Under the pieces are notes generated by a model. It did not search any database. It was not told the origin of the DNA and saw nothing but the letters and a program-made list of their open reading frames with translations. From Nannochloris sp. 'desiccata' (Eukaryota; Chlorophyta; Trebouxiophyceae; Chlorellales; Chlorellaceae): DNA of 64,000 nt. Shown in pieces: positions 30,424 through 34,410 of the stretch. The stretch spans positions 1,426,001-1,490,000 of the forward strand of contig JAGTXX020000009.1 of NCBI GenBank assembly GCA_019044685.2, in the 5' to 3' direction. A program made the position numbers and the translations under genes. Each line of letters starts with the position of its first letter. The first letter of the stretch is position 1.

Positions 30424-33400
30424 ATGGGCGAGCTAAGGAGTTATATCGTGGAGGTTGGCCCTCCAAAGCCCGCTGCGAACGGAAAGCCTGCAACTGGGCC
30501 CGAGTATAGGTAAGTGCTATCATATAATGCACTGTCTGTGTTTTGGGTGCCTTGGATTCCCCCCAACGATACACGATCACCTCGCAACCCACCTAGCCAG
30601 CAACCCTATTGTGAACCAGTATCAACCAGCCAGTTGGTCGCATTTAAACCAATTTTATCCCCTTCTCTGCAGGGCTGTCATCGCCAAGGATGGTCCTCCA
30701 ACCTTGGCTGGAATCACTACTCTCTACGAAGCATTCAGTGCCTCCGTCGTCAAATACCCTACTAACAACTGCTTGGGACACCGCACAGCTGATGGATCCT
30801 ACTCTTGGTTAACCTACCAAGAGACCGCTGAGCGCGCTGCTGCTATTGCCAGCGCTATGGCATCCGTTGGTGTCGGCCCTCACGATCGTGCTGGTGTGTA
30901 TGGAGCCAACTGCCCTGAATGGATGATATCTATGCAGGCATGCAACCGTATGACCATTTACTGCGTCCCTCTCTACGATTCCCTCGGTGAAAACGCTATT
31001 GAATACATCATCAACCACTCTGAGTCTAGCATCGTCTTTGCTCAATCTGAAAAGTTAGGCATGCTTGCAAAAGCTTTGCCCCATGTCAAAGATCAAATCA
31101 AGCATATCGTCTACTGGGGTGCTGCTGATGCAGCCTCTATCGATGTTGCCAAAGGGTTGGGCATGGCTGTCTACTCCTTTGATGAGTTTTTGGCACTTGG
31201 TCGTTCTAAACCTGTTGCTGCCGTCCCGCCTGCAGCAAAAGATCTTTGCACCATTATGTACACCTCCGGTACCACTGGAGATCCCAAGGTAAGGAAATAG
31301 TACAGATAATGCCCCGCCCAATCAAGCAGATCTGCTCCCTCCACCTCTGCTCCTACTCTCTGCCCCTCTACCACTTGCCACTTATTAATTTGCATTATCA
31401 AAACTTAATTATTTATTTATTTAATATTTCTAACCTGTGGCATTCTCTCCCCTTTCTACCTACCTCCCCCGTACTCTCCTACTCTCTCTATCTTATCTCT
31501 GCTATGGATTTGAATCATTTACTACTATCAGGGTGTTGAGCTTACCCACTCTGGTGTACTTGGGGCAATCATCTCTATGAAAAACTTTACAGATTCAGTT
31601 GGCGTCAATTTTGACGAAAACGAGGTGTACTTGTCATTCTTACCTTTGGCTCATATCTTCGATAGGTGGGTACAACTACTATAATCTACATACGTGGGTG
31701 TAGTCTACATCCACTTGTGTTTTACAAAACTTGAAGAAGAAATAAGAAGATTGAATCTAAGACGAGAGAGAGAGAGATAAAGAGAGAGAGGCAGCCAGAA
31801 TATTTATATATTTATTTTTCCCGACACGCCCAATGTATTTATTAATTTACTATTTATTCAGAAGTTTTCCCTGGTTTTTGTTTCCCGCTTCAACCCCTTT
31901 TCCTGGTACATCATACGGGCCCTATCCCCCCTAGTTTATAATTTGGTTTTTTGTTCATTTTCTCTATTATCAGTGGTTGAATTTGTTTTTCCGCATGTGT
32001 ATCTTCTAATTGCAGGGTGCGCTTCTGAGCCACGGTGCTGTCATTGCAACCATTGCTTCGCAGCGTACATTTGAGTTCTCCGTTCCTAAAGGTGGTATAA
32101 CTCCAGATGACTGTTATCTTTCGTATCTGCCTTTGGCACATATATTCGATCGGTTAGTAATCCAATATCGGATTTTCTTCTTTTTTAATATGAAATAAAG
32201 ACGGTTTCTTTTTACCTTTTTCGTCATCTACTTTTCATATCACTGATGTTTTGGGCTTAATTGACCCGTTTTTCGTTCCTTGACCTCTTTTTCCCCAAAG
32301 TCGTACTATTTATTTATATTTATATTTATTCTTCTTCCCCGGAAAGGATCCCCCCGACCTCGGCTGCTGCTTCTCCCTTTTCCAGCCTCCAACACCAAAC
32401 CAAATGAAGCAGCAGTCTTTATGACATTATTGCTTGCTAATGATATTGTATTGCACTCTGAGTATTATTTATACTAGATAAATAGAGAATAATTAGGATA
32501 GATCGATTTATCAATCTAGTTCTCTTGATTATTTAATTACTCCCTGCAGGGAGTGGAGCTGAGCCACGGTGCTGTCGTTGAGACTGTGATTTCACTTGCT
32601 TGGTTTTTATATGCACATAAAGTGGGGCTGACTGAGAAGGATTCTATGCTGGGATTCTTACCTTTGGCACATATCTTTGAACGGTGCAGTTGATTCTTCT
32701 TTCCATATTTTTTTTTTCGGCGTCGCTTTTCTTTTCACCCTTCTTTCCTGGGCCGTTTTCTTTTACCTCTCTCTCATTTTTTCTTTCTCTCTTGTCTCTT
32801 CATTGGTCTTCATTCTGTTTTCTGTCTCTAATTAGTACTACTAACCTTTATCTAACCGATTCTTTCTTCCCTTTCCCCCCTTTCTCCACCCCTTTTATTA
32901 TTACAGGACTGCTGAAGAGTTGATGCTTCACCTGGGTGCCTCCATCGGCTACTGGCGTGGCGACATCAAAGGCCTTGTCGACGATATTGGTGCCTTGCGT
33001 CCCACTCTCTTCTGCGGTGTCCCTCGTGTGTTTGATCGCATTTACGGTGGAGTCATGGCCAAGGTCGATGGCGGCTCTGGCCTTAAGAAGGCTCTCTTCC
33101 ACTGGGGTTACAAACGCAAGCTCCACGCTTTGGACGCTGGCCATGCTTACGACAAGGCAGCCCCCTTTTTCGATAAACTTGTCTTTTCTAAAATCAAAGA
33201 AAGACTCGGTGGCCGTGTTCGCTTAATCGTCTCTGGTGGTGCCCCTCTTGCTCGCCATGTTGAAGACTTCCTTCGCGTCACCATGTGTTGCAGAGTCGTT
33301 CAAGGCTATGGTCTGACCGAAACTTGTGCTGCGTCTTTCATTGCTGTGCCTGATGTCGCTGAGCATGCTGGTACTGTCGGTCCTCCTCAACCCGTACTTT

Positions 33401-34047: not shown

Positions 34048-34410
34048 ACTACAGAAGTTGGACTACAGAAGTTGGACGGGTGGTTATATCTCTAAAGGGC
34101 TTTATACGTAGGTATTAATAAAACTAAATAGAAATTTAACAGGATTTTCCGGTACTCGTTTTTTTTTTTTTATACGACAAACTAAAGGGATTACAAATAA
34201 GATCATAGTACTCTTTGGACGGTATCACACGAAGTGTTGTTTATCTTCGTTGTTTAAAATAATCTCTATATCTCCCCTGTTTCTATAATAATATTAGTGA
34301 AAAATAAAAAAGTAATAGATACCACCTGCTGATGCTGGTGGTGAAGAGAAGGAAAAAAGAAGACGTTGTTGTAAAAATTAAGCTTTTACATGTTTTTTTG
34401 ACGACAAGAA
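34048..34410. other. Convergent 3' spacer (LACS / NELF-C)
   Basis: 363 bases of AT-rich sequence with a short tandem duplication (ACAGAAGTTGGAC twice) just after the LACS stop and a T run near 34160. No gene is seen. Confidence 0.5.

Follow-up and report, generated by a model that had tools for sequence, protein, structure and literature searches.

An acyl-CoA synthetase gene with three tandem exons

The locus described here raises the question whether an acyl-CoA synthetase gene of the green alga Nannochloris sp. 'desiccata' (N. desiccata below) exchanges one segment of its enzyme by choosing among three similar exons and, if so, which segment is exchanged. The gene lies in the window (the whole stretch of DNA that was analysed, 64 kb), and its exons are listed in Table 1 together with the other features discussed below. 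An isoform of its product matches the AMP-binding domain PF00501 with 287.9 bits (curated cut-off 29.9), and the best public protein matches carry the name long chain acyl-CoA synthetase 4. By the AMP-binding domain and the gate motif described below, the gene can be assigned to the ACSL/LACS type, with long-chain activity as a prediction.

Analysis of the exon boundaries reveals a regular arrangement, as described in the initial annotation, which had reported three tandem exons of 134, 137 and 134 nt, flanked by AG and GT and sharing one phase; these coordinates and frames are confirmed. Each of the exons A, B and C has AG directly 5' and GT directly 3', starts at a codon boundary and ends with the first two bases of an Arg codon, the third base of which is the G at 32907. 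The isoforms with a single exon A, B or C comprise 658, 659 and 658 aa, respectively, and isoform A is identical, letter for letter, to the public N. desiccata protein P0002. Since all three exon lengths are 2 mod 3, the other combinations of canonical sites terminate early: a transcript with no variable exon reaches a stop after 236 aa, those with A+B, A+C or A+B+C after 282 aa, and that with B+C after 283 aa.

Table 1. Features of the LACS4-type gene, its introns, and related loci (window positions unless a contig is given)
Feature	Characteristics	Position	Strand	Source or remark
Exon 1	contains the start codon	30424-30509	+	exon model
Exon 2	3' end just past the P-loop TSGTTGDPK	30673-31288	+	exon model
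CU-rich tract upstream of A	other predicted partner of the GA tract, pairing more weakly	31435-31517	+	
Alternative exon A	134 nt, F-gate SFLPLAHIFDR, gating position F270	31532-31665	+	used in public model P0002
4-nt extension of A	leads up to the second donor, GTACAA; included in P0001	31666-31669	+	
Purine (GA)-rich tract, A-B intron	candidate RNA pairing site	31733-31800	+	folding prediction
Alternative exon B	137 nt, Y-gate SYLPLAHIFDR, gating position Y271	32016-32152	+	present in P0001
Alternative exon C	134 nt, F-gate after Gly, GFLPLAHIFER, F270, donor GTGCAG	32550-32683	+	
CU-rich tract, intron after C	predicted partner of GA tract 31760-31791	32766-32797	+	
Terminal exon	in every isoform, includes the stop codon	32907-34047	+	exon model
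Paralogue LACS gene, locus L029	spans 3141 bp	G000:C9:377774-374634	-	
Paralogue exon 1		C9:377774-377646	-	
Paralogue exon 2		C9:377539-376950	-	
Paralogue alternative exon alpha	208 nt, F-gate SFLPMAH	C9:376772-376565	-	
Paralogue alternative exon beta	208 nt, Y-gate SYLTLAH	C9:376177-375970	-	
Paralogue terminal exon		C9:375689-374634	-	

We consider it likely that three tandem exons, used in a mutually exclusive manner, encode alternative gate segments of this LACS4-type enzyme, where the exclusivity and the use of B and C are predictions. Each mRNA would then contain a single one of them, giving an F-gate (A), a Y-gate (B) or a Gly-Phe gate (C). The exchanged segment would begin where the P-loop ends and reach as far as the gating motif, and the other canonical-site combinations would meet an early stop through the frame.

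With the canonical sites, a full enzyme of 658-659 aa does require exactly one exon, as claimed initially, but this is not true of all sites present. A second donor is found 4 nt 3' of A and another one, GTAATC, 4 nt downstream of B, and there are AGs located 14 nt inside B or C; any of these would permit in-frame double forms. Public models of the gene comprise one with A alone (P0002) and one with A+B (P0001, 705 aa, a cluster of 11 sequences), in which A plus 4 nt is joined in frame to B and which is the only model that includes B. It could be argued from P0001, from the +4 donor that B possesses as well, and from a fused public model of the paralogue described below (P0121, 715 aa, a cluster of 16 sequences) that two exons are sometimes joined in frame via the +4 donors, giving enzymes of 704-705 aa or acting as an off-switch. 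The same picture is, however, produced by a gene predictor forced to keep the frame, and P0010 and P0121 fuse their copies via other, internal sites. Moreover, a doubled gate segment within the catalytic domain would be unlikely to fold, and the donor of A, GTGGGT, is closer than GTACAA to the general donor consensus, so that we regard such in-frame joining as quite improbable.

Divergence of the exons

The exons are 57-60% identical to each other at the DNA level (for A and B over 110 aligned columns only) and 47-54% identical at the protein level, while the frame, the splice sites and the gate motif have all been kept, in agreement with the earlier suggestion of an old divergence under constraint. 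To judge this similarity against the chance background, we carried out a six-frame tandem-homology scan of the 64 kb for same-strand segments of at least 30 residues located within 3 kb of each other (E-value up to 0.01). It returned four rows. Three of them correspond to the pairwise matches A-B, A-C and B-C, and the fourth is an antisense shadow, 16 residues long, of two of these exons. In a comparison of 31 loci from the 21.55 Mb assembly (18 contigs), all of them around AMP-binding matches and many overlapping (128,965 bases), rows of at least 35 bits came solely from the window gene, its paralogue and two further loci with AMP-binding matches, L006 and L026.

Exon C is absent from all N. 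desiccata proteins examined, and a search with its residues 236-283 as the sole query gave 8 candidates, none of them reaching an E-value of up to 1. Together with the atypical, weak-looking donor of C, with the presence of Ala in B at Val236, a position invariant in a 27-sequence alignment, and with the fact that the sole public single-exon model contains A, this absence would fit one working exon (A) accompanied by decaying duplicates, so that B and/or C would be relics seldom or never spliced in. Decay is at odds, however, with the state of the exons themselves, as A, B and C are all open, in the same phase, equipped with usable sites, and retain the gate motif at 47-54% identity; further evidence on this point comes from other algae (see below).

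The alternative exons contain the fatty-acid gate motif

The alternative exons of human ACSL6 and ACSL1 encode 26 residues, which include the element D-x4-(F,Y)-LPLAH-x2-E (PMC1543647, PMC2868784). The corresponding element in the algal exons reads EVYLS-F-LPLAH-IFD in A, DCYLS-Y-LPLAH-IFD in B and DSMLG-F-LPLAH-IFE in C, i.e. C fits the human pattern exactly, B has D instead of the last E, and A has E instead of the first D and D instead of the last E. The initial annotation had proposed that the segment swapped in the alga is different from, and adjacent to, the mammalian one; because the algal exons contain the gate element described for ACSL1 and ACSL6, this proposal is wrong and was discarded. 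The algal exons do reach beyond the gate element, upstream to the lysine of the P-loop.

The gating residue of human ACSL6, Phe/Tyr319, is encoded inside its mutually exclusive exons (PMC1543647). In the alga it is likewise held by the alternative exons and differs between them, being F in A and C and Y in B, and F in alpha and Y in beta of the paralogue. The 3' end of the algal exons aligns, in a motif alignment made by eye, with the gate residue Trp234 of the long-chain fatty acyl-CoA synthetase from Thermus thermophilus, the gate of which (226-VPMFHVNAW-234, as given in PMC3198602) falls in the same place; this bacterial enzyme differs from the algal one in having a Trp gate and no splicing.

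The mammalian ACSL6 and ACSL1 genes resemble the algal one in that adjacent alternative exons supply the (F/Y)-LPLAH gate with either F or Y at the gating position (PMC1543647, PMC2868784). Mammals have two such exons of 26 residues, whereas the alga has three of 44-45 codons that extend back to the P-loop. Skipping of both human exons leads to gateless isoforms (ACSL6_v3 and ACSL1_v3), while skipping in the alga leads to an early stop. A further difference is the paralogue of the alga, with an exon pair of its own and other exon boundaries. With oleate as the substrate, the activity of human ACSL6 was 45 nmol/mg/min for the F-gate form and 5 nmol/mg/min for the Y-gate form, an approximately tenfold difference, and was undetectable for the form without the gate exon; residues past 319 also influence activity (PMC1543647, PMC2868784). 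By analogy with the F- and Y-gate forms of human ACSL6, the algal isoforms would be expected to work at different rates and/or to prefer different fatty acids.

In algae, LACS enzymes supply the synthesis of oil and membranes. If one gene changes its gate by splicing, an oleaginous alga could tune its use of fatty acids without new genes. With the same kind of gate swap in mammalian genes and in two genes from a single alga, the role of the gate in substrate choice becomes directly testable with natural variants that differ in just 44-45 residues.

The initial annotation knew of no described algal case. Among the titles listed in searches of the open-licence literature on acyl-CoA synthetases, splicing and green algae, none concerned an exon swap in an algal LACS gene, and a term search of a review of splicing in microalgae found no mention of acyl-CoA. 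For mutually exclusive exons as such, however, there is a green-algal precedent in cyn23 of Volvox carteri, the exons of which are of equal length (106 nt) and are treated in a verification section of the paper (PMC4378016). The Volvox gene is unrelated to the present one; it encodes a cyclophilin-related protein and has two such exons. Together with the mammalian genes, it is the nearest case that these searches brought up.

A paralogue with its own exon pair

A whole-genome search with isoform A identified a paralogue, revealed by two separate matches on the contig of the window gene that both covered query residues 222-300. Its alternative exons alpha and beta are each 1 mod 3 in length and extend from the Ser of TSGTTG to GYWR. 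Alpha or beta taken singly gives a protein of 660 aa, while both together lead to a stop at 341 and neither to a stop at 245. Public models P0122 and P0123 represent the beta form. In addition, a 2140-bp contig (P0124) with the source code lgn, which we take to stand for Logan assemblies, encodes the whole 660-aa beta form with few residue differences; since it contains the complete protein in 2140 bp, compared with a gene of 3141 bp, its origin is almost certainly a spliced RNA in which beta is the only alternative exon. A protein of the paralogue with alpha alone was not found among the proteins examined, and P0121 consists of alpha fused to an internal part of beta. In both LACS genes, then, the public annotation fuses two alternative exons while preserving the frame, by means of sites that are shifted or internal (P0001 and P0121).

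As the exon boundaries and the phase differ between the two genes, the comparison argues for separate duplications as the origin of their exon sets, a point that the short exon trees do not settle. A third LACS-like gene (C5, ~287.6-289.6 kb) shows a single copy of the segment, with a Y-gate, and gave no tandem row that reached 35 bits. The preferred reading of the window gene is that of a LACS with a choice of three gates, of the ACSL1/ACSL6 kind but in an alga, accompanied in its genome by a second gene of similar design. The view of the exons as alternative versions of one acyl-CoA synthetase segment, as put forward initially, is upheld for this green alga, and their exclusivity is very likely.

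Many AMP-binding matches also lie in the stretch G000:C3:404572-480932 (loci L004, L006, L008 and L028), in open frames of up to 2602 aa; the GC content of these loci is 0.48-0.51, compared with ~0.45 in the window. This stretch looks like a large multimodular synthetase cluster, or is possibly foreign; such a cluster would be unusual in a small green alga.

Related sequences in other algae and the age of the exon cluster

As no DNA of relatives turned up in a single scan of genome_contigs and another of viral_contigs, the exon clusters in other algae were judged from protein models. These carry signs of the same exon cluster. In P0032 from Chlorella variabilis, the first copy of the segment is followed by an apparent translated intron and then by LQGVLISHRQVATTIGSKRAFLD, which is part of a second copy. 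In P0010 (EukProt), a 17-residue piece, GVEISHTAVLSVVVSKR, is joined to a full copy at '..SKR/GVEISHW..' (the slash marks the junction). The comparison with related algae suggested in the initial annotation thus yielded, at the level of protein models, second copies in P0032 ('..LQGVLISHRQ..') and P0010 (GVEISHW...) that begin at the same residue as the N. desiccata exons.

A different kind of evidence comes from two close relatives, P0007, a Y-gate protein of C. ohadii, and P0033, an F-gate protein of 535 aa with the source jgi. Their two flanks are 91.4% and 94.6% identical, as opposed to 60% for the segment (27/45 positions vs 456/490 in the flanks, Fisher P 8e-9). Exon C is more similar to the copy in P0010 (62% protein identity) and to P0008 (58%) than to B (51%) or A (47%). 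As it is about equally close to P0028 from Auxenochlorella (60%), a single-form protein, and to P0061 (58%) and P0024 from Helicosporidium (56%), the class to which C belongs is not sharply set off. Gly precedes the gate in P0008 and P0010, both Gly-Phe, out of 117 scorable proteins (120 listed) in our first set, and in one of the 56 scorable proteins among 59 new ones in the second set, P0132, where it is Gly-Tyr.

The recurrence of C-like Gly-Phe gates in P0008 and P0010 and the exchange of the segment between P0007 and P0033 both speak against B and C being decaying duplicates, an explanation that we consider unlikely. Exon choice might also be frame-controlled splicing noise, with wrong products degraded and no regulation of isoforms, as would be compatible with the early stop in all canonical-site combinations of none, two or three exons. 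Neither a second gene of the same design nor second copies and a Gly-Phe gate that recur in other algae would be expected from noise, which makes this explanation very improbable indeed, and we retain the choice among mutually exclusive gate exons as the preferred reading.

The gating letter itself is Y in 92 and F in 25 of the 117 scorable proteins of the first set. P0127 and P0128, which come from two species of Micractinium and are single-form orthologues of the paralogue, differ in having F or Y. Since the letter varies between single-form orthologues, F or Y alone may matter little.

Exon trees were calculated from ~45-50 columns, with rows chosen by hand from 179 proteins. The first tree had 38 rows, two intended members of the paralogue family (P0125 and P0127) having dropped out owing to a pattern mismatch, and the second used 28 of these 38 rows, again chosen by hand. 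C grouped with P0008 and P0010 in both, with moderate support (ultrafast bootstrap 73 with 38 rows, SH-aLRT 89 with 28 rows). In the 28-row tree, exon B groups with alpha of the paralogue (support 77); a single clade of A, B and C was not rejected (AU p 0.19), nor was a clade of alpha and beta (p 0.62), while a single clade uniting the three exons of the window gene with the two of the paralogue was rejected (p 0.017). The exon trees are weak, and the best reading, short of proof, is that the LACS4 exon cluster probably predates the split between Chlorella and Nannochloris.

A broader scenario can be put forward, to which we give an even chance. According to it, the gate swap would have arisen on two or more occasions in the lineage of the alga, with three exons in the LACS4-type gene and two, differently bounded, in the paralogue, and again in vertebrates, which would make the gate a repeatedly chosen splice-tunable module, and the LACS4 cluster, with a distinct Gly-Phe class, would be older than the Chlorella/Nannochloris split.

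Intron tracts and candidate RNA pairing

The A-B intron contains a GA-rich tract, in which (GA)7 at 31764-31777 is the sole run of at least five GA units in the 64 kb on either strand. Among the six intron pairs tested, only one, formed by the A-B intron and the intron that follows C, was predicted to pair more strongly than all 60 dinucleotide shuffles (-80.9 vs -56.9 +/- 6.1 kcal/mol). In the partition function, the expected number of pairs of the GA tract was 46 for the last intron and 0 for the intron before A; its weaker pairing with the tract upstream of A (-39.9) comes from a duplex calculation only. Pairing of the GA tract with the CU tract after C would loop out B and C, and A would be looped out if the partner were the CU tract on its 5' side, so exon choice is possibly set by competing intron pairings around the GA tract.

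Complementary intron tracts could in this manner expose or loop out exons as in the docking/selector splicing of the Dscam type (PMC6071210). Unlike the Dscam-type systems described there, the alga offers one predicted GA/CU pairing, which involves low-complexity sequence and is without comparative support, and the paralogue has a different layout; for these reasons we rate intron pairing as a hypothesis. An RNA-structure design common to both genes was considered and found unsupported, as the strongest inter-intron pairing in the paralogue is between its two outer introns (39.1 expected pairs).

Outside the introns, the presumed 3' UTR carries a 14-nt unit, ACTACAGAAGTTGG, twice (34048-34077), immediately 3' of the stop.
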